A DNA stretch of 29,258 nucleotides from a virus: IMG/VR virus record IMGVR_UViG_3300006737_000123, positions 1 to 29,258 of that record; one strand, written 5' to 3'. Below, one piece after another: positions 14,233-29,258 of the stretch. Positions within the stretch are counted from its first letter, which is position 1. The number at the start of each line of letters is the position of its first letter. The notes beneath the pieces are model-generated. The model ran no database searches and had not been told where the DNA came from. It saw only the letters and a list, made by a program, of their open reading frames with translations. Both the position numbers and the translations under genes were made by a program.

Positions 14233-14829
14233 ATGAAATTTTTAAGAAAAAACAAATATTATGAAGGTATTGTGTATGAATGGAATTTACCCAGCGGATT
14301 TAGCTGCCCTTCTGCTTTAGAATGTTTGGTAAAAGTAGAAAGAAAGACTGGAAAATTCAACAACAAAAGCAATGCTTATAGATGTTATTCAGCTATGCAA
14401 GAAAGATTCCCAGCAGTGCGTGAACATAGATGGAAAAATTTTGATTTTTTAAGGGATGGCGGGACACCAATTATTCCAGAAAAGGCAAAGGCAGTTAGAA
14501 TACACATGTCGGGGGATTTTTATAGTCAAAAATATTTTGATTTATGGTTACAAATATGCAAGGACAATCCAAAAATTGAATTTTGGGCCTATACCAAAAG
14601 TGTTAATTATTGGGTAAAAAGGTTAAATCAAATTCCAAATAATTTAATTTTAACTGCCAGTCAAGGTGGTAAATATGACCATTTTATTCAACGGTACAAT
14701 TTAAAAAATGTAGAAATAATTAAAACAAAAGAAGAAGCACAAGGAAGGCCGATTGATATTTGCGATGATCAAGCTAGAAAACCTCATGTCAATTTTTGTT
14801 TATTGGATAATTTTAACAAAAAAAAATAA
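14233..14829 (+). CDS. GP88-like phage protein
   Basis: A 198-aa protein starting right after the ATPase stop. It shows NLPSGFSCPSALEC (C25, C31), a Cys at 51, RIHMSGDFYS (89-98) and FWAYTKS (117-123), followed by C177 and C189. This arrangement matches the family named after mycobacteriophage gene product 88, which is widespread in phages and of unknown biochemical function. Conserved Cys spread over the sequence and the RIH.SGDF/YTK motifs resemble those of DUF5131-type (Gp37/Gp68) proteins, so a metal or Fe-S cofactor is conceivable. It is embedded in the replication block. Confidence 0.7.
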   Translation: MKFLRKNKYYEGIVYEWNLPSGFSCPSALECLVKVERKTGKFNNKSNAYRCYSAMQERFPAVREHRWKNFDFLRDGGTPIIPEKAKAVRIHMSGDFYSQKYFDLWLQICKDNPKIEFWAYTKSVNYWVKRLNQIPNNLILTASQGGKYDHFIQRYNLKNVEIIKTKEEAQGRPIDICDDQARKPHVNFCLLDNFNKKK

Positions 14830-15122: not shown

Positions 15123-15646
15123 TGCCAAGATGTAAAAATTGCAGAGAAAAATTCGAGCCAAAGCATTTCAATCAAAAGTATTGCTTCAAACCAGAGTGCG
15201 TTAAAGCGTGGGTTACGTCTGCAAAGAAAAGTAATTGGAGAAAAGAGAAAAAAAAACTAAAAACAGAATTGGAAACTGTCCAAAGTTTAACCAAAAAAGC
15301 TCAAAGATATTTCAATACATACATTCGACTCCGGGATGCGGATCAAAATTGTATTAGCTGTCATAAAAAACTTACTGCAAAATTCGATGCTGGGCATTAT
15401 TTTAGCTCTGGGGGGCATAAAATACTCACGTTTAATGAGGACAATGTGCATGGTCAATGCGTTCGCTGTAACAGAGACTTACACGGCAATCTATTAGAGT
15501 ACCAAATAGGAATCGCACAGAGAATTGGAACGGATAAATTATTCCTATTACACGAACAAGCTCATACAATTAGAAAGTTTACGAGGGATGAGTTGCGAGA
15601 GATCATTGAGATTTACAAGAAAAAAGCGAATGATTTACAAAAATAA
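15122..15646 (+). CDS. ninG: NinG/Rap-like recombination nuclease
   Basis: A 174-aa protein similar to lambda NinG (Rap), a structure-specific DNA endonuclease that promotes RecBCD/Red recombination. N-terminal zinc-knuckle Cys are C4, C7, C21 and C26. The core has C77/C80, H92 (FDAGHYFSSGG) and C113/C116 with NRDLHGN (H121), the HNH-like metal and catalytic region of the family. Between them is a Lys-rich helix. It starts with GTG, overlapping the preceding TAG by one base. Length is a little shorter than lambda NinG. It is the last gene before the promoter at 15651. Confidence 0.85.
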   Translation: MPRCKNCREKFEPKHFNQKYCFKPECVKAWVTSAKKSNWRKEKKKLKTELETVQSLTKKAQRYFNTYIRLRDADQNCISCHKKLTAKFDAGHYFSSGGHKILTFNEDNVHGQCVRCNRDLHGNLLEYQIGIAQRIGTDKLFLLHEQAHTIRKFTRDELREIIEIYKKKANDLQK

Positions 15647-20518: not shown

Positions 20519-20851
20519 ATGGCAAGTAAAGATAATTTAATACCCTTTGAAAAGGGAAAGAGCGGTAACCCAAAAGGCAGACCAGTAGGCAGTAAAAACA
20601 GAAGCACTATTGCTAAGAAATGGCTAGAGATCGAACAGAAGCTAAAGAACCCTTTAACGAATGAAGTTGAAAAGATGAGCCAAGAGGACTTAATGACATT
20701 GGCATTAATCAAAAAGGCTAGAGAGGGAGATACGCAAGCATACCAAAAATTGCTTGATTCAGCATACGGACAACCTCTCCAACAGATTGAGCAAACAAAT
20801 ATAGAGCAACCACTATTTCCAGATGTTAAAGAGGACAACGGCGATAAATAA
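20519..20851 (+). CDS. Terminase small subunit candidate (DUF5681-like)
   Basis: A 110-aa protein. The N-terminal FEKGKSGNPKGRPVGSKNRS is the DUF5681 signature often found next to terminases. A helical middle (EDLMTLALIKKAREGDTQAY) is followed by LLDSAYGQPLQQIE, typical of small terminase-like DNA-recognition proteins, and an acidic tail that could contact the large subunit. It overlaps the large terminase by 29 bases. It would recognise the packaging start. Role by context and signature; reasonably secure. Confidence 0.75.
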   Translation: MASKDNLIPFEKGKSGNPKGRPVGSKNRSTIAKKWLEIEQKLKNPLTNEVEKMSQEDLMTLALIKKAREGDTQAYQKLLDSAYGQPLQQIEQTNIEQPLFPDVKEDNGDK

Positions 20852-21989
20852 AATACTGGCTCTAAAAAAGAGAATCAAAATTATTCAAGGCGGTACATCT
20901 GCCGGAAAGACATTTGGCATTCTGCCTATATTGATCAACAAGGCTTGTTTACTTCCCGGTCTGGAGATTTCAGTTGTAGCAGAGAGTCATCCGCATTTAA
21001 GAAGGGGAGCCCTAAAAGACTTCCTAAAAATCATGAAGACCACCAACCGATTTATGGATGACCGCTTTAATAAAAGCAGATCGCAGTACACATTCGCTAA
21101 TGGCAGCTTTATCGAATTTTTTAGTGCCGATGACTCCAGCAAATTGAGAGGGGCGAGAAGGGACATTTTGTATATCAACGAGTGCAACAATATTACTTTT
21201 GATTCTTATAATGAGCTTTCAATAAGAACAAAGAAAGAGGTTTACCTTGACTACAACCCAAGCAACGAATTCTGGGTGCATACCGAACTAAAAAATGATC
21301 CGGATGCTGATTTCATTATTTTGACCTACAAAGACAATGAAGGACTTGACGATGGTATCGTCCAACAGATTGAAAAGAATCGCTTAAAAGGAAAGACAAG
21401 TACCTATTGGGCGAACTGGTGGCGTGTTTATGGCGAAGGGCATATAGGTCAATTACAAGGAGCGGTTTTTACTAACTATAAGATCATTGATAAAATACCG
21501 AGTGAAGCAAGATTGATTGGCATTGGTCTGGATTTCGGTTATAGTGCTGACCCTACGGCAATAATAGAGATTTACAAATACAATGATCAAAGGATATTAA
21601 ATGAATTGGCATACCAAACTAAAATGGTCAACAGTGATATTGCTAAAATCCTACCTACTGGCATTCCTATATTTGCAGATAGTGCTGAGCCAAAAAGTAT
21701 TGAAGAGATCAGAAGAGGAAAAAATGGTGTATTGATTAAGGGAGCGGCAAAAGGAAAGGACAGTATTAGTTATGGCATAGACGTTATGCAGAGGCAAGAT
21801 TATCTGGTAACGAAAGACAGCACTAATTTAATTAAGGAGCTTAGATCCTATTGCTGGGACTCGGATAAAAGCGGAAAAAAACTAAACAAACCTATTGGAG
21901 AGTACAATCATGCGTTGGATGCGATCCGGTACCATGAGATTGAAACGCTTGGCTTAAATAAAAGCTACGGCAAATATTCTATAATATAG
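20823..21989 (+). CDS. terL: Terminase large subunit
   Basis: A 388-aa packaging motor. The N-terminal ATPase has Walker A GGTSAGKT (23-30) and Walker B DILYINE (114-120, E120). The C-terminal RNase-H-like nuclease has GLDFGYSADPTA (D237), FADSAEPKSIEEI (D286) and NHALDAIRY (D366), which would be the metal-binding acids. The pattern fits the PBSX/Terminase_3 type, about 390 aa, so it is complete though compact. Circular permutation implied by the overlapping ends would fit headful packaging. The stop at 21989 is followed by a 39-base gap with a GGTTATATAA box. Confidence 0.95.
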   Translation: MLKRTTAINKILALKKRIKIIQGGTSAGKTFGILPILINKACLLPGLEISVVAESHPHLRRGALKDFLKIMKTTNRFMDDRFNKSRSQYTFANGSFIEFFSADDSSKLRGARRDILYINECNNITFDSYNELSIRTKKEVYLDYNPSNEFWVHTELKNDPDADFIILTYKDNEGLDDGIVQQIEKNRLKGKTSTYWANWWRVYGEGHIGQLQGAVFTNYKIIDKIPSEARLIGIGLDFGYSADPTAIIEIYKYNDQRILNELAYQTKMVNSDIAKILPTGIPIFADSAEPKSIEEIRRGKNGVLIKGAAKGKDSISYGIDVMQRQDYLVTKDSTNLIKELRSYCWDSDKSGKKLNKPIGEYNHALDAIRYHEIETLGLNKSYGKYSII

Positions 21990-22028: not shown

Positions 22029-22781
22029 ATGAACATAGATTTATTACTTCCTACTTCGCTAAGTGAGATTCCATTAAGCAGATACCAAGAGTTTATTGAG
22101 ATGAAAGAAGCATCAAACGATGACGAATTTATTGCTCAAAAAATGATCCAAATATTTTGCGGCATTAAATTATCAGAAACTAGAAAAATTAAAATGAAGG
22201 ATTTGAATGATTTAATTGTGCATTTTACTAGAGTGTTTAATGAAAAACCCAAGTTAATCAGACAATTCAAAATCAAAAACATTCAGTTCGGCTTCATACC
22301 CAAACTAGATGAGATTACTTTTGGTGAATACGTAGACCTTGAAAACCATCTGCAGAACTGGAAAAATTATCACAAGGCTATGGCGGTCATGTACCGACCT
22401 ATCACCGACAAGAATGGGTACAATTATTCGATTAGAGATTATGAGCCAAATGAGGACATGCAAGATTTAATGAAGTTTGCACCATTAGATGTAGCGATCA
22501 GCAGTTCTCTTTTTTTTTTGACTTTAGGCAACGAATTACTCAGTCTTACAATCAACTATTTACAGAAAGAATTGAAGACGATGATAAGTTCCAGCAATAT
22601 AGCGAACGCCAAAATTTCACCAAGCAATGGGGATGGTACAATAGCTTCTATGCACTTGCTTCAGGAGATATTACCAAGTTTGACGAAATTGCAAAATACA
22701 GACTTACTAAATGCCTCACCTATCTCACCTTTGAAAAACAAAAAAACCAAATTGAAGCAAACGAAATTAAACAACAAATGA
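22029..22781 (+). CDS. Tail assembly chaperone candidate, zero-frame product
   Basis: The zero frame gives 250 aa starting MNIDLLLPTSLSEIPLSRYQ. Residues 1-160 are a well-formed helical/mixed domain. From the T10 run at 22510-22519 (residues 161-164) onward, the zero-frame sequence turns into low-complexity Ser/Thr/Leu/Lys text ending in a Lys-rich tail, whereas the -1 frame becomes a balanced protein-like sequence. Two-product genes with a -1 slip are typical of tail assembly chaperones (lambda G/GT), which bind the tape measure. Here the gene lies about 5 kb before the tape measure, instead of next to it. The zero-frame tail may be translated, or may be an accidental extension. Confidence 0.6.
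   Translation: MNIDLLLPTSLSEIPLSRYQEFIEMKEASNDDEFIAQKMIQIFCGIKLSETRKIKMKDLNDLIVHFTRVFNEKPKLIRQFKIKNIQFGFIPKLDEITFGEYVDLENHLQNWKNYHKAMAVMYRPITDKNGYNYSIRDYEPNEDMQDLMKFAPLDVAISSSLFFLTLGNELLSLTINYLQKELKTMISSSNIANAKISPSNGDGTIASMHLLQEILPSLTKLQNTDLLNASPISPLKNKKTKLKQTKLNNK
22511..22517 (+). other. Slippery heptamer T TTT TTT (-1 frameshift site)
   Basis: Zero-frame codons here read CTT TTT TTT TTG. The heptamer T-TTT-TTT at 22511-22517 is a canonical X XXY YYZ -1 slip site. Slipping back one base joins the upstream 163 codons to the -1 frame from 22517. A homopolymer length error would mimic this. Confidence 0.55.
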
Positions 22782-22789
22782 GACGATGA
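22517..22789 (+). CDS. Tail assembly chaperone, -1 frame extension
   Basis: The -1 frame runs open for 90 codons from 22517 to TGA 22787-22789. Its product begins FDFRQRITQSYNQLFTERIE, continues with NFTKQWGWYNSFYALASGDI and TKFDEIAKYRLTKCLTYLTF, and ends QQMRR. Balanced charge, aromatic residues and the WGWY..FYALA.GDITKFDEI block resemble known protein in this phage group far more than the zero-frame tail does. Its stop overlaps the next ATG as ATGA (22786-22789), the coupling used throughout this genome; the zero-frame stop (22781) does not. The fusion would be about 253 aa. Confidence 0.6.
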   Translation, partial: FDFRQRITQSYNQLFTERIEDDDKFQQYSERQNFTKQWGWYNSFYALASGDITKFDEIAKYRLTKCLTYLTFEKQKNQIEANEIKQQMRR

Positions 22790-23238
22790 ATTATTTTGAT
22801 ATTATAGATAAATTAAAAGCACATTTTGAAGCGGATCCAATAGTAAATACCGTTACGCAAGGCGATATCTTTGACGTTGATCTGGACAAGCAGACTATTT
22901 TCCCACTAGTGCACCTCATTGTAAATAACGTAACATTTGAGGAAAACGTCATACGTTTTAACATATCAATCTTAGCAATGGATATTACTGACATATCAAA
23001 AAAAGAAAGTGCTAACAAGTTCGATGGGAACGATAACGAGTTATGGGTACTTAATACACAGTTATTAGTGCTTAACAGATGTTATGAGCTGTTACGAAGA
23101 GGCACATTGTATTCAGATAAATTTCAAATAGATGGTAACCCCAGCTGTGAGCCATTTACAGAAAGGTTTGAAAACAAGCTCGGGGGGTTTACGATGAGCT
23201 GTGATGTATTAATCGGCAATGACATGACTATCTGCTAA
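22786..23238 (+). CDS. Tail terminator/neck protein candidate
   Basis: A 150-aa protein starting MNYFDIIDKLKAHFEADPIV. The alternating strands (FPLVHLIVNNVTFEENVIRF), LNTQLLVLNRCYELLRRGTL and the end FENKLGGFTMSCDVLIGNDM match a small protein regularly found between terminase and tape measure genes in Bacteroidota phages. It has the features of gpU/tail-terminator-like folds. It would cap or join the tail tube to the neck. The next gene starts at its stop. The role is inferred from position and fold impression. Confidence 0.6.
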   Translation: MNYFDIIDKLKAHFEADPIVNTVTQGDIFDVDLDKQTIFPLVHLIVNNVTFEENVIRFNISILAMDITDISKKESANKFDGNDNELWVLNTQLLVLNRCYELLRRGTLYSDKFQIDGNPSCEPFTERFENKLGGFTMSCDVLIGNDMTIC

Positions 23239-23795
23239 TGGATCAAATGGACAGCATACAAGATGTATTAAATGACTTCAAAAATAATGTCATTAACGAG
23301 GCTAAAAAAAACTTAGGTAAAAAAAACACGTCTGGTACTTTGCAGAATAGCATACGAGCTAAGGTTAAGGAATCCAAAAACAGCATTGAGATCAACTTTG
23401 AAATGGCTAATTACGGAATATTTCAAGACAGAGGTGTTAAGGGAGTTGAAAGCGGAAAGAGTCTAAGTGGTTACAGATATACTCGCAGAGGTGGTGCCGG
23501 TAGCTTAAAGGGTATGCCGCCACCCTCAGCATTCGACAAGTGGGTTGTACAAAAAGGTGGATTCAGCTCTCAAATCAGAGGTAAAAAAGGAAGGTTTATA
23601 AAAAGAAAGACTTTGACATTTTTAATAGCAAGAAGCGTATTCAAGGATGGAATTAAACCAAGTATGTTTTTCACTAAGCCGTTTGAAAAGCATTTTAAAA
23701 GATTACCACCAGAACTGCTCGAAAAATTCGGTCTGGATCTGGCAAATCTATATAGTCAAATAACCGATAACAGTTTTAAAGAATTTAACAAATGA
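23238..23795 (+). CDS. HK97 gp10-like tail-completion protein
   Basis: A 185-aa protein with SGTLQNSIRAKVKESKNSIE, MANYGIFQDRGVKG (56-69) and a basic middle (YRYTRRGGAGSLKGMPPPSA). The layout (an N-terminal helix, the NYG.F.D.G core, a basic loop and a C-terminal amphipathic helix) is that of HK97-gp10-type head-tail joining proteins. It would be part of the neck, where tail meets head. Its start shares one base with the preceding stop and its end overlaps the next gene by four bases. Confidence 0.7.
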   Translation: MDQMDSIQDVLNDFKNNVINEAKKNLGKKNTSGTLQNSIRAKVKESKNSIEINFEMANYGIFQDRGVKGVESGKSLSGYRYTRRGGAGSLKGMPPPSAFDKWVVQKGGFSSQIRGKKGRFIKRKTLTFLIARSVFKDGIKPSMFFTKPFEKHFKRLPPELLEKFGLDLANLYSQITDNSFKEFNK

Positions 23796-24880
23796 ATTTA
23801 GCAAGATCGCCATACATAGTCGAAATTTCAGTTGCAACACAAACGGCTAGCAAAGTAAAGTTGTATTTATGGACAACTGGAAGCCAACCAGCTAGCCCTC
23901 AATATACGTTAGACAAGCTTATACCAGCATCCAACAATGTCAAGACGTATTACAATATATCACCTTACGTTCGCGAATATTTTACAATGGGGGGATATGA
24001 CTATGACACCGCAAATTTCTTTGACACAGCAACAAGCACAAACTATGTCGTTAATTATCACATAGAAAAATTCAAAACAATCGGGGGAGTGGAGTCATCT
24101 GCTGGTACGGAAACTGGTCAATTCATGAATGGATATTCAAAATACACAGAAGGATTTAATGCGACCACCTCAGACGTTCTTTTAGAAGAGGGAACATATC
24201 TGTACCATTATGATAGTTCATTCAGCACAACGCAAAGAAATGCACTTGCTGGAAGTTTTGATGCTGAACTTGCTGTTGGAGAAAAAATTAAGTACACCAA
24301 TTTAAGAACTGGATCAACGCAAATTTACACCATTAGTGCTGCTGGAGTTAAAGTATTTGGCAGAGTGTATACCGGCAATCTTGCAGATGGGAATAAAGTC
24401 GAAATGATCAATACAAGTGCGGCGGTTGTTTGGACAGCTACATTCAAACCAGTATGCGAGCCAAAATACAGTCCTATTGTTTTAGATTTTGTAAACAAAC
24501 ATGGCAGTTGGTCACGAATGTTTTTCATGAAGGTAAATAAAAGAACAACATCGATAAAAAGTAAAGAATTCAAATTCAACCCTCAAACCCTGCCATACAG
24601 TCCAACTAGCGATGGCGGACAGATCAAGCAATTCAATAAGACTGGTAACGAATCAATTACTTTAAACAGTGGATTTGTAAACGATGGATATGCTGAATAC
24701 ATTGAGCAGCTAATGTTAAGCGAACATGTCACTATTTTAGATTATGACACTAACCAAAATGCCTTTCCAGCTAAGGTTAAAACATCGTCTTTAAAAAAGC
24801 AAACTGGATTGAATGACGGCACGATGAATTACACACTTGACTTTGATTTTGCCTTTGATCTTATAAACAACGTAACATAA
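23792..24880 (+). CDS. Tail structural protein, unknown role (362 aa)
   Basis: A 362-aa, beta-rich protein opening MNLARSPYIVEISVATQTAS. The C-terminal third (TLPYSPTSDGGQIKQFNKTG; LMLSEHVTILDYDTNQNAFP) is a pattern I know from conserved genes between neck and tail-tip genes of Bacteroidota phages. Possible roles are distal tail or baseplate hub protein. There is no signal peptide and little Cys. It is one base from overlapping the 800-aa gene (TAATG). Virion location is well supported by context; the exact role is not. Confidence 0.65.
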   Translation: MNLARSPYIVEISVATQTASKVKLYLWTTGSQPASPQYTLDKLIPASNNVKTYYNISPYVREYFTMGGYDYDTANFFDTATSTNYVVNYHIEKFKTIGGVESSAGTETGQFMNGYSKYTEGFNATTSDVLLEEGTYLYHYDSSFSTTQRNALAGSFDAELAVGEKIKYTNLRTGSTQIYTISAAGVKVFGRVYTGNLADGNKVEMINTSAAVVWTATFKPVCEPKYSPIVLDFVNKHGSWSRMFFMKVNKRTTSIKSKEFKFNPQTLPYSPTSDGGQIKQFNKTGNESITLNSGFVNDGYAEYIEQLMLSEHVTILDYDTNQNAFPAKVKTSSLKKQTGLNDGTMNYTLDFDFAFDLINNVT

Positions 24881-27282
24881 TGAGGGGAGTTTCTGTTTAC
24901 ATAGAGGGTGTCAAATTAGATTTATTTAAAGATGAGCAAATAAATGTTACATCAATTCAACAGAACGTTCAGGATCTTGCTGCCGTTTTTGCTGACTTTA
25001 GTCAATCGTTTACCGTTCCGGCTACACCAAACAATAATAAAGTATTTGAGCATTTTTATCAGAATGACATAACACCAACTATAGACCAAAATATACGGAG
25101 AGCGGCTTTCATTGAGATTGATTTAACTACATTTAGACGAGGTAAAATAAGCCTTGAAAAAACGGAAGTGCAAAACAATGAGCCATATTCTTATCAAATC
25201 ACATTCTATGGAGATGTAGCAAGTTTAAAAGATACGTTTGGCGAATCCAAGCTTGTAGATATAACAACCTTAAATACAACAGATTTTAATTATTCCAGTT
25301 CTACGGTTAGCCAAAGAATAACAGACGATGCAACAGAGTACCCAATTCGCTTTCCTTTAATAGTTGGCAGAAACGTAACCTATGGTGATGGTGCAAGTAC
25401 AGATATAAGTCACACCGGTAGTGGCTCAATAGCATACACAGAGTTGTTCCCAGCAATAGCAGTGTATCAAATATTCAATGCAATTCAAAGTCATTACAGC
25501 ATTACGTTCAATGGTTTGTTTTTAAACAATGACAGATTCAGAAGGGCATTTTTGTATTGCCAAAATTCAGAAGCATTTTTGTACACAACAGCTTCGCAAA
25601 TAGCACAACAAGAAAATTTAGTAACTGGAGCAAACAACACAAATCCAGTAGCAGAAGCAAGTCACTTTTTTGATCAAGCAAATCACACGTTAACAATAAG
25701 CAACACAGAGCCAACTGTGATGTTTCCAAGCTTAACTCCAAGTGGTGGCACAATATCTAATGCAAGGCATAGCATTCAGTTTGCAGTTAGTAATGTTAGT
25801 AATGCAACGATAGGATATTATATTGATGTTTATTTAAATGGTGAATTATCGCAAAGCTTTTTTCGTGAAGGAAATAGTAATATACAAATAGTTAATGTCA
25901 GTAATGACTCAATACTTAGCAATCAATATTCGTTTTATGTCAGAGCGTTAAATGCACTTACATTTAATTTTGAGGTTAAATATTTACAAGCAGCAGTATA
26001 CGTTTCAACTGGAGTTACACTTGTTGCTAACACATATACAAGTAGCAGTACGTTTTCAACTACGGCAACTTTTAGTGTATTAAACTATCTGCCAGATATA
26101 AAAGTAGTTGACTTTTTTAAAGGTATTCTACAGATGTTTAATTTAACGTGCTACGGCACTTCTAAAGACGTTTATCAAATTGAGCCATTGGATGACTGGT
26201 ATCAAAAAGGAGCTATTGTAGACATCACAGAATTTACAGACATAAAAAGCATCAACCTTGATCGAGTTAAATTATTTAAAAATATTAGTTTTAATTATCA
26301 GGAAAGTGAATGTGCAACAAACGAAGCATTTAGAGAGCTATCAAATGGTCGTAATTATGGTAATGTCAGTAATAAATTTGATTACGATGGGGGCGAATAT
26401 AAAATAGATTTGCCGTTTGAAAACATGATGATGCACAAGTTTACCGATACTGATTTGCAAGTTGGTAAAAGATTAAATACCGACATTCAAACATACATAG
26501 CCAAACCATTGATCATGTATGCCTACGATACCACAAGCGCACAATGGAGATTAAACGAGGGTGGCAGTGTAACTAATATGAATACATATATACCTTTCGG
26601 ACAAGATCTGCGTTTAGGCACTACGGATTTTACATTAAACTTTAATGCTGATAATAGCACATTTTTATTGGAGCCAATACCAAATACTTTATACGCAATT
26701 TATTACGCCCAATATTTAAGTAATTTATACAACCTTAAAAACAGAAGAACTAATGTCAAGACGAATCTGCCTATAAGCTTATTAACCGGTCTTGAATTAA
26801 ATGACAGAGTGATTATAAGAGACAAGCGTTACATGATTGACAGCATGAAGTCCAACTTAAATACTGGCGATGTTGATCTGGTGCTTATCAATGATTTCAG
26901 AGAGCTTATTGCAGATGGTGGCATAGTACCAGAGGTAATAGTCCCGGATAATAGTGCACAATGTTTAAACATAGATATATTGTTCCCAAACAATGCAGTT
27001 AGTGCTACGGTAACAACAACGACTGCTGGAGTTACTATCACACCTAGTACTTTTACTGCAGAAGGAAGGACAAGAGTCTGCCTACCAGTCAATGGAGCTA
27101 CTGATTTAATTGTTACAGAAGACGGAACAGATGATATAACAGATGAGAATGCTGGCAGTATTGCAACAAAACAATTAAGAACAGAAGGAGGCGGAGCTAC
27201 GGTTATTATTTTAGTCGTAACATACACATTCAGTAATGGAACAACTGCGGCCAATCAAATATTCATACAACAAGATGCTTAA
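24880..27282 (+). CDS. Large tail tip/baseplate protein (800 aa)
   Basis: The largest gene with both ends inside the window. Its N-terminus (MRGVSVYIEGVKLDLFKDEQ, then NVQDLAAVFADFSQSFTVPA and NNNKVFEHFYQNDI) is a highly recognisable opening of a conserved Bacteroidota phage structural protein. It is followed by beta-rich segments, a KVVDFFKGILQMFNLTCYG block and, from about residue 700, an Ig-like or adhesin-like end rich in Thr/Val. It lies just before the tape measure gene and is probably a tail-tip hub or host-contact protein. I cannot see an enzymatic motif. The call is by family pattern plus synteny. Confidence 0.7.
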   Translation: MRGVSVYIEGVKLDLFKDEQINVTSIQQNVQDLAAVFADFSQSFTVPATPNNNKVFEHFYQNDITPTIDQNIRRAAFIEIDLTTFRRGKISLEKTEVQNNEPYSYQITFYGDVASLKDTFGESKLVDITTLNTTDFNYSSSTVSQRITDDATEYPIRFPLIVGRNVTYGDGASTDISHTGSGSIAYTELFPAIAVYQIFNAIQSHYSITFNGLFLNNDRFRRAFLYCQNSEAFLYTTASQIAQQENLVTGANNTNPVAEASHFFDQANHTLTISNTEPTVMFPSLTPSGGTISNARHSIQFAVSNVSNATIGYYIDVYLNGELSQSFFREGNSNIQIVNVSNDSILSNQYSFYVRALNALTFNFEVKYLQAAVYVSTGVTLVANTYTSSSTFSTTATFSVLNYLPDIKVVDFFKGILQMFNLTCYGTSKDVYQIEPLDDWYQKGAIVDITEFTDIKSINLDRVKLFKNISFNYQESECATNEAFRELSNGRNYGNVSNKFDYDGGEYKIDLPFENMMMHKFTDTDLQVGKRLNTDIQTYIAKPLIMYAYDTTSAQWRLNEGGSVTNMNTYIPFGQDLRLGTTDFTLNFNADNSTFLLEPIPNTLYAIYYAQYLSNLYNLKNRRTNVKTNLPISLLTGLELNDRVIIRDKRYMIDSMKSNLNTGDVDLVLINDFRELIADGGIVPEVIVPDNSAQCLNIDILFPNNAVSATVTTTTAGVTITPSTFTAEGRTRVCLPVNGATDLIVTEDGTDDITDENAGSIATKQLRTEGGGATVIILVVTYTFSNGTTAANQIFIQQDA

Positions 27283-27475
27283 ACATATAATAGATTTACT
27301 ACAATTAGATGACTTCTACGAAGGTAGTCATGACGTACAAATAGCAAAGGGCTTATACAATTATGAGAAAGGAATAAAAGGAATTTACAAGCAAAAAAAA
27401 CGCATGTCAATACTAAAAAAAACAAATTCAGAACACCTCAAAAACTATAAACAATGGCAGAAATTAAACAAGTAG
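27275..27475 (+). CDS. Unknown small protein before the tape measure (66 aa)
   Basis: I use ATG 27275 (MLKHIIDLLQLDDFYEGSHD), which overlaps the end of the 800-aa gene by eight bases; the in-frame ATG at 27236 would overlap it by 47. The 66-aa product is helical and very basic toward the end (KQKKRMSILKKTNSEHLKNY). It overlaps the tape measure gene by 22 bases. Its position directly before the tape measure is where tail chaperones usually lie, so it could be a tape measure chaperone, but no signature supports it. Confidence 0.65.
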   Translation: MLKHIIDLLQLDDFYEGSHDVQIAKGLYNYEKGIKGIYKQKKRMSILKKTNSEHLKNYKQWQKLNK

Positions 27476-29258
27476 CTACCTTAGAAGCAAAAACAAAAGG
27501 AGTTGATGAGGCAGCAAAACAATTTGAAACGCTGTCAAATGGTGTTAAAAAAACAGCAGATAGTGCTCAAAATTTAGATGCTAAATTTGAGGATGTGTTT
27601 CAGGGCGTTGAGCCGTTGACTACTAGATTAGGCGAAGCAGAGGACAGAATGTATGAACTTGCTCTTGCTGGAGATACAACGTCTCAAGAGTACCAAGATC
27701 TTTTAAATAAAGTTGCTCAATATCGAAAGGTACAAATTGAAACCGACAGAGTAGTTGATCAAGCCGCACAAACATTTAGTCAAAAGTTAGGTACAGCAAT
27801 CGGGGGTGTTACAAGTGGGTTTGCAGTTGTTCAAGGGTCAATGGCATTAGTCGGCGGTGAATCCGAAGCACTCGAAAAATCATTACTCAAAGTTCAATCA
27901 GCTTTAGCCATTCAACAAGGAGTTGCTGGCGTTTTAGAATATAGCCGGAGCGCTGGTCTAGCAACAAAAGCTACAAAGCTCTGGAATCTGGCTTTAAAAA
28001 ACAATCCTATTGGGCTGGTTATTGCTGGAGTGGTTGCCTTAATCGCCGTTGTTGGTACGTTAGCTGCTGCATTCAATTCCAGTGCAGATGCAAGGAAAGA
28101 AGACTACGAAGCTCAGCTCAATCAAATAGATGCGACTAAAAAACAAATTGAAGACAGAAAAAATCAATTAAAACTCGAAGGCCGGTATGCTGAAAATCGC
28201 ATTAAAGAATTGCAGCTTGACAGAGATTTGGCAACAAGTAAAGAAGAGATTGCTGCTATTGATAAAAAAATTGTAGCAGAACGAATAGCTGGTTTTGAAA
28301 GGGAACGAGAAGCTGTCAGAAGTAACCAGGAAACAGCAATTCAAGATGCCTTAAAGCAACAAAAAAGGATGCAAAAGCAATTTGAAGATGAGCTTGATAA
28401 AACATTTTTTAAATCTAAAGAAAGAATTGCAGCAGCAAAAAAAGAATTTCAAATATCAGTACAATTTACAAACAAATTACAAAAGCAATTACAAGAGGAT
28501 AATTTTCAAGGCATAGTAGAAATAAACACAAGGCAAAAAGAATTTGAGCAAAACTTGCAGAAAGAATCTATTGAAGAGGAAGCTCAAACCAATCAAGAAA
28601 AGCTAGACAATTACAAAGACTATTTACGAGGCAGATTAAACGCTGCAAGAAGAATTGAAGACCTTGAAAATGAATTAATGGACGAGGGTCTGGAAAAAGA
28701 ACTTGAGATCAATCGTGATACATTCAGAAGACAACGAGAGGATACAAAAGCACAAGGTAAACAAAAACAAAAAATAATAGATTTACTTAATGAGCTTGAA
28801 CTTAAAAAAGAAAAAGAAATACGAGAAAAATTTGACGTATTTAAATTAGAATCATTTGATGGCGAAATTGCACAACTTAAACTTCAATCAGTAAAAGAAA
28901 TTGAAATAAAAAAACTGACCAATGAAGAAATAGAAAAGCAAATGTCAGAAAGTGCAGCACGTCAAAAAGTGATTGACGATAAATCGTCTACTGATAAAAG
29001 AGCCAATGCTATTGCAGTGGCTGATGCTAACTTAACCATTGCTCACGATTCATTAGGTGCTATTGGGGAACTTGCTAACGCATTTGCTAAGGACGATGAA
29101 AAGAACGCTAAGAAAGCATTTAACATTAACAAAGCAGTAGGTATCGCACAAGCAGTAGTTAGCACGGCACAAGGGATCATGGCACAATTAGCAGTACCAC
29201 AAGATGCGCTCACCGGTGCTAACTTTATAAAAGCTGGTATTGTAGCAGCAACTGGTGC
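27454..29258 (+). CDS. Tape measure protein, N-terminal part (continues at the left end)
   Basis: ATG 27454 (MAEIKQVATLEAKTKGVDEA) opens a frame with no stop to the window end. Through the 60-base overlap it continues in frame to TAA 293-295, giving 679 aa. The N-terminus is helical with TMP-type repeats. Residues 140-210 contain a hydrophobic stretch (NNPIGLVIAGVVALIAVVG, 183-201). Long charged coiled coils follow (about 210-520), and a final Ala-rich helical part. Length and composition are those of siphovirus tape measure proteins. By the usual proportionality the tail would be of the order of 100 nm. The hydrophobic stretch may help DNA cross the inner membrane. Confidence 0.9.
   Translation, partial: MAEIKQVATLEAKTKGVDEAAKQFETLSNGVKKTADSAQNLDAKFEDVFQGVEPLTTRLGEAEDRMYELALAGDTTSQEYQDLLNKVAQYRKVQIETDRVVDQAAQTFSQKLGTAIGGVTSGFAVVQGSMALVGGESEALEKSLLKVQSALAIQQGVAGVLEYSRSAGLATKATKLWNLALKNNPIGLVIAGVVALIAVVGTLAAAFNSSADARKEDYEAQLNQIDATKKQIEDRKNQLKLEGRYAENRIKELQLDRDLATSKEEIAAIDKKIVAERIAGFEREREAVRSNQETAIQDALKQQKRMQKQFEDELDKTFFKSKERIAAAKKEFQISVQFTNKLQKQLQEDNFQGIVEINTRQKEFEQNLQKESIEEEAQTNQEKLDNYKDYLRGRLNAARRIEDLENELMDEGLEKELEINRDTFRRQREDTKAQGKQKQKIIDLLNELELKKEKEIREKFDVFKLESFDGEIAQLKLQSVKEIEIKKLTNEEIEKQMSESAARQKVIDDKSSTDKRANAIAVADANLTIAHDSLGAIGELANAFAKDDEKNAKKAFNINKAVGIAQAVVSTAQGIMAQLAVPQDALTGANFIKAGIVAATG
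29199..29258. repeat. Terminal direct repeat, right copy
   Basis: Identical to bases 1-60; see the left copy. Removing one copy gives a 29,198-bp closed map. Confidence 0.97.

Follow-up and report, generated by a model that had tools for sequence, protein, structure and literature searches.

A very likely programmed -1 frameshift at a conserved T9/T10 run in a tail-assembly-chaperone-like gene of Bacteroidota phages

INTRODUCTION

Tail chaperone genes are known to use ribosomal frameshifting (PMC5009743, PMC10885494), and the roles of the lambda products gpG and gpGT have been summarized (PMC5009743). The distance from the slip to the stop codon of the zero frame averages 26 and 36 nt in two sets of known phages (PMC10885494). 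Frames can also be changed during transcription, since the RNA polymerase of bacteria slips where nine A or nine T follow one another (PMC5009743) and on Tn with n over 8 (PMC3711429); examples of such transcriptional slippage are the T9 of Shigella mxiE and the A9 of Thermus dnaX (PMC5009743, PMC3711429). The present work deals with a linear virus record of 29,258 bases, referred to as the window, and with a gene in it that carries a T10 run. A first-pass annotation of this DNA had proposed that a -1 frameshift occurs at the run in a tail-chaperone-like gene, and its claims are revisited here in the light of approximately 280 related loci.

RESULTS

Layout of the locus. The features of the frameshift gene and of its neighbours are listed in Table 1. 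The codons around the T10 run place the T_TTT_TTT heptamer in the zero frame, exactly where the first-pass annotation had read it, and the -1 stop does overlap the next start codon as ATGA, as had also been described. The joined protein comprises 253 aa, of which 90 are derived from the -1 frame, and the distance from the slip to the zero-frame stop amounts to 262 nt. The T10 run is the sole T-run of at least 8 on the + strand of the window. When the gene was recoded at random with its own amino acids and the codon usage of the phage, a T-run of at least 9 arose in 4.6% of cases. Runs of 9 to 10 A are found at 1439-1448, 1611-1619, 14818-14826, and 15248-15256, several of them within genes; long A-runs are thus tolerated in the window, and long T-runs are rare.

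Table 1. Features of the frameshift locus and its neighbourhood in the window
Feature	Position	Strand	Details
Terminase large subunit (TerL), conserved upstream neighbour	20823-21989	+	Pfam PF17288, PF04466; synteny
Zero-frame gene	22029-22781	+	250 aa; stop TGA 22779-22781
N-terminal domain of zero-frame gene			~residues 1-188, followed by ~60-residue tail of low predicted confidence
T10 run, slip site	22510-22519	+	zero-frame codons CTT TTT TTT TTG
T_TTT_TTT heptamer, in zero frame	22511-22517	+	
T_TTT_TTG, second slip option	22514-22520	+	
-1 extension	22517-22789	+	90 aa; predicted helical domain; conserved KWGWY..[IF]YALA.GD and LTYL.FEK
Zero-frame tail overlapping -1 extension (dual-coding region)	22518-22781	+	
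ATGA, overlap of -1 stop and next start	22786-22789	+	-1 stop TGA 22787-22789
150-aa gene, conserved next gene	22786-23238	+	
185-aa gene	23238-23795	+	weak similarity to tail completion/Neck1 (phrog_5, E 0.004)
362-aa gene	23792-24880	+	
800-aa gene	24880-27282	+	
Putative tape measure protein	27454-29256	+	runs off window; assigned from composition and place

Conservation of the T-run. All of the approximately 280 related loci, with identities down to 19-30%, have T9 or T10 at the site, followed by the -1 extension; the figure is a round one, and a handful of these loci are second copies of one contig. The first scan yielded 80 relatives with 62-100% identity, and scans with the cultured Nonlabens phage P12024L and a divergent plasmid-labelled phage as queries were added. 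Together, these three scans provided 183 loci (33 non-redundant at 85% identity), with T9 in 177 and T10 in 6. The -1 extension alone as query matched at least 597 places, from which 74 new loci were kept (T9 in 73, T10 in 1). A further scan and a search of bacterial genomes contributed 32 more loci (T9 in 31, T10 in 1), among them contigs of Psychroflexus and of Flavobacterium sp. MFBS3-15, in the latter of which the run survives at 50% G+C. The first scan of bacterial genomes, for which a narrow alignment served as query, found nothing, and a broader alignment found four loci. A T9 run is present in a prophage of a 3.9-Mb Flavobacteriaceae contig and in a copy from another genome of this family; the cellular genomes with matches belong to Flavobacteriaceae or other Bacteroidota.

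Most relatives have T9, and the T10 of the window corresponds to T9 plus a G-to-T substitution that converts TGG into TTG. As the additional T arose by substitution and not by insertion, a missing T is ruled out. A run of 11 T, which would have made a plain single frame, is not what the relatives have: frame and run are equal in independent contigs. Deviating run lengths are confined to two "plasmid" records full of indels, CP045836 (T8) and NZ_CP040811 (T7), which represent the same phage and differ from each other by homopolymer indels. The corresponding regions (CP045836.1 22327-39018 and NZ_CP040811.1 22667-39355) are near-identical and of Bacteroidota phage type, situated on "plasmids" of 66-67 kb that are labelled Lysinibacillus pakistanensis and Escherichia fergusonii, so that contamination or mislabelled phage DNA is probable. 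Every homologue checked has kept the run, which chance cannot explain. A slip-prone zero-frame sequence kept across homologues is a hallmark of programmed -1 frameshift genes, and the invariance of the run in this many relatives points to a deliberate slip as opposed to an error of sequencing.

The -1 extension as a protein. Upstream of the run, the variability of the three codon positions (zero-frame numbering) was 0.16/0.08/0.46, as compared to 0.14/0.28/0.23 downstream. The second base of the zero frame is thus the most variable one downstream, which means that the silent position now coincides with the third base of the -1 codons. The pN/pS ratio was 0.15 upstream of the run, 0.41 for the -1 extension, and 0.73 for the zero-frame tail. 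The length of the extension is constrained, at 82-94 aa in all complete relatives, whereas that of the zero-frame tail varies between 50 and 268 nt. The extension is predicted to be a helical domain, most of whose second half has a pLDDT of 85-91. Its KWGWY motif and a downstream Leu show almost no variation. The first-pass annotation had considered this 90-residue stretch protein-like, and coding in the -1 frame is now supported by the approximately 280 loci; it is this frame that the homologues conserve, so that the contrary pattern, a conserved zero-frame tail in the absence of a conserved -1 frame, does not apply. No start codon precedes residue 89 of the -1 frame in the window, and in two non-redundant relatives this frame is devoid of start codons; the new frame is therefore conserved as a protein that has no start of its own, a further hallmark of a programmed -1 frameshift. 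The model of the N-terminal domain and that of the extension are both matched, at the fold level only, by several viral proteins 226-267 aa in length, as would be expected of natural one-frame fusions.

Two side observations concern the frames around the run. At one locus (L043:4817-5500), the overlap has lost ~27 codons by an in-frame deletion; both frames are kept, but the -1 extension lacks its KWGWY part. Furthermore, in 30 of the 33 non-redundant relatives, the third frame encounters a stop no farther than ~6 bases from the run.

Taken together, the conserved T9/T10 run, the switch in variability to the -1 frame, and the lack of a usable -1 start make it very likely, judging from sequence comparison, that the -1 frameshift at the T-run is real and programmed. 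The central proposal of the first-pass annotation has thus been borne out by the relatives.

The zero-frame tail and dual coding. When the codons of the -1 frame were redrawn from the codon usage of the phage, 5.2 zero-frame stops were expected, and the open tail had a probability of 0.0003. The tail is open in 76 of 76 members of the subfamily of the window. For comparison, when 75 stretches of 88 codons were taken from ordinary genes of the phage, not one was stop-free (minimum 2, mean 6.5, with 7.0 expected). Silent change was reduced at four-fold sites (0.23 in the extension versus 0.54 upstream) and also at two-fold sites (0.16 versus 0.38), at which changes cannot create zero-frame stops. 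A stricter permutation of codons within the extension gave a weaker test of openness, with P values of 0.002-0.6 per sequence, which is due to the fact that codon choice in the extension has already been shaped by constraint; the permutation was jointly significant (Fisher 167 on 66 degrees of freedom, with relatedness ignored). The first 24 codons of the overlap are equally constrained in both frames (pN/pS of 0.55 each), and beyond them most of the zero-frame tail is nearly neutral at the protein level (0.83). The start of the tail continues a predicted helix to approximately residue 192, and the rest is predicted with low confidence. These substitution patterns indicate that the overlap is dual-coding at its start, and that past this part the zero frame is chiefly maintained open, perhaps for the sake of its tail, perhaps to let ribosomes reach the next gene. 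The earlier description of this tail as low-complexity holds for its end (..KNKKTKLKQTKLNNK) but not in the sense of mere noise, since selection keeps it open.

Gene neighbourhood. Classical G/GT genes adjoin the tape measure gene. Here, the order of TerL, the frameshift gene, the genes of 150, 185, 362, and 800 aa, and the putative tape measure gene is conserved in the relatives that cover the region. The distance from the frameshift gene to the putative tape measure gene is 4.7 kb in the window, and in 54 relatives 5.3-7.4 kb separate the start of the gene from the start of the tape measure match. A location about 5 kb away from the tape measure had already been pointed out as unusual, and the position is indeed conserved and unlike that in lambda: at least four genes lie in between, so that the gene is not found directly upstream of the tape measure gene and after the major tail protein gene, as a G/GT gene would be. 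Elsewhere in the window, positions 317-1876 encode an XkdF-like protease (PF14550) and a C-terminal DUF5824 stretch as one long protein.

Function. A function as tail chaperone is likely by analogy, and the gene quite probably is a tail-assembly-chaperone-like gene of tailed phages of Bacteroidota (Flavobacteriaceae), with two products that share an N-terminal domain and a -1 frame that is entered at T9/T10. These products would be a 250-aa zero-frame form and a 253-aa form with its last 90 residues from the -1 frame, presumably both made in a fixed ratio. By analogy to lambda gpG/gpGT, the shared domain may coat the tape measure protein and the -1 domain may recruit the major tail protein. 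A short form and a frameshift-extended form with a common N-terminus, as in G/GT, are predicted from the sequence. At the level of individual matches, phrog_166 ("tail protein") was matched weakly by 12 of 33 members (best 5e-4), PF10109 (Phage_TAC_7) was matched below threshold by one member (0.043), and a Foldseek match to an annotated chaperone had an E value of 0.99; a comparison of the prediction with the solved structures in the PDB revealed no convincing match. The tail-chaperone identity proposed earlier is supported indirectly, by the architecture, the weak PHROG "tail protein" match, and the gene neighbourhood. Given that its position is unlike the usual place of tail chaperone genes, the gene has been filed as one that may work like a tail chaperone and not as a proven member. 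In Flavobacterium phage 6H (L195:10000-10927), gp10 is a weak structural match and is followed by an extension-like unannotated stretch; this case was dropped as support, since a stop interrupts the -1 frame between TTTTTTC and that stretch.

DISCUSSION

The slip may be made by the ribosome, in tandem on U_UUU_UUU, or by RNA polymerase, which would leave one additional U, or two fewer, in the mRNA; the case between these two mechanisms is nearly even. Tandem -1 slippage of the ribosome as in lambda G/GT has about an even chance of being correct. Every homologue possesses an in-frame heptamer for the -1 direction, and ribosomal slippage is the mechanism known from tail chaperone genes (PMC5009743, PMC10885494). 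Taken alone, it leaves unexplained that the run is always 9-10 long in both codon registers and that no other slippery heptamer occurs across the diversity of the family. A stimulatory RNA structure was sought upstream and downstream of the run in 33 relatives, and the mean z was near zero, which likewise speaks against the ribosome.

The invariant T9 and the lack of a detectable stimulatory structure make polymerase slippage a serious candidate, to which somewhat less than an even chance is assigned. The polymerase would stutter on T9/T10, and normal translation of those mRNAs that have gained one U (or lost two) would yield the -1 product. Bacterial RNA polymerase slips on runs of this length, and a homopolymer of about nine or more A or T under purifying selection is a signature of transcriptional slippage. 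The run is exactly 9-10 T in the approximately 280 loci and in two codon registers (phase 1 and phase 2), whereas a heptamer of 7 bases would be enough for the ribosome. If the second Phe codon ended in C instead of T, the protein would be the same in either frame and U_UUU_UUC would remain, but this change was never seen in the 29 applicable non-redundant cases (P ~0.04 if these are independent); the two slip Phe codons are always TTT in the non-redundant cases, whereas 29% of the other Phe codons are TTC. The enrichment of RNA structure on neither side of the run and the end of the third frame at most 6 bases from it in 30 of the 33 non-redundant relatives also agree with slippage of the polymerase. 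On the other hand, the outer T's also encode hydrophobic residues (V/L/I before the run in the zero frame and L/F after it in the -1 frame), so that amino acid selection can account for them. Moreover, U_UUU_UUC may slip less well on the ribosome than U_UUU_UUU. To our knowledge, no downstream structure is needed in lambda G/GT either, and the known tail chaperones slip ribosomally. The most far-reaching reading, namely, that a large family of Bacteroidota phages makes two tail-chaperone forms by polymerase slippage on an invariant T9, with DNA selected in both frames over up to 88 codons, is accordingly put forward as a tentative one.

As to the overlap, the zero-frame tail may be kept open for translational coupling, such that most ribosomes translate up to the end of the gene and can then re-initiate at the gene that follows; this explanation is plausible, although it falls somewhat short of being favoured. 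In the subfamily of the window, 5-20 bases separate the zero-frame stop from the -1 stop downstream of it, the latter overlapping or abutting the next start in many members, and most of the tail past its first 24 codons is near neutral and predicted with low confidence. Coupling does not account for the slowed change at those two-fold sites of the -1 frame that are unable to make zero-frame stops, nor for the first 24 codons, which are constrained alike in both frames and continue the helix, and in more distant relatives the zero frame ends up to 191 bases earlier.

It is very improbable that the -1 extension is a separate gene with a start of its own. The deposited annotation of P12024L gp41 treats it in this way, and PHROG 38404 matches the extension as its own family; however, the -1 frame is under constraint from the run onward, and start codons are not conserved and, in two non-redundant relatives, lacking. 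A sequencing or assembly error, with 11 T and one continuous frame in reality, is refuted by the homologues. Homopolymers are error-prone, as the two plasmid records illustrate, but T9/T10 recurs in loci from many samples, a cultured phage, and the 3.9-Mb chromosome contig, the T10 of the window stems from a substitution, and the zero frame is kept open downstream.

A search of mainly open-access literature, which is no proof of novelty, retrieved no report of this frameshift in Bacteroidota phages. In the cultured relative, neither the -1 extension nor its slip site has been annotated, and the PHROG families that match carry the label of unknown function, so that this gene is probably mis-annotated in hundreds of genomes of marine and freshwater phages. 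With one invariant sequence and changes all around it, the family offers a natural experiment of unusual clarity on what fixes a frameshift site. It is also relevant to a second question, namely, whether slippage of the polymerase is a means by which phages set the ratio of their tail assembly proteins. A dual-coding overlap of this length is not usual among frameshift genes of the tail chaperone type.

Parallels exist to lambda G/GT, namely, two products with a shared N-terminus, the -1 direction, a slippery heptamer, and a separate C-terminal domain in the new frame, and the layout had fairly been likened to that system. In contrast to lambda, the slip site here is an invariant T9/T10, both frames are selected, there is no convincing match in sequence or fold, and the gene has the terminase on one side and neck-type genes on the other, with the putative tape measure gene following after 5-7 kb. 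The overlap of 262 nt (50-268 in the family) likewise exceeds the averages of 26 and 36 nt in the two phage sets (PMC10885494). Shigella mxiE and Thermus dnaX have in common with this family that a run of nine A or T changes the frame, but these are bacterial genes with experimental evidence, whereas the gene described here is a phage gene whose slip is predicted. The direct relative is that of Nonlabens phage P12024L, which has T9, the shared domain, a homologous -1 extension, and the same order beside the terminase, and which differs in that its zero-frame tail has only ~25 residues and that it is annotated as two hypothetical genes. These genes, gp40 and gp41 (L082:11995-12689, JQ823123.1), look like one frameshifted gene, which PHROG 32199 and 38404 split in the same way as the annotation does.
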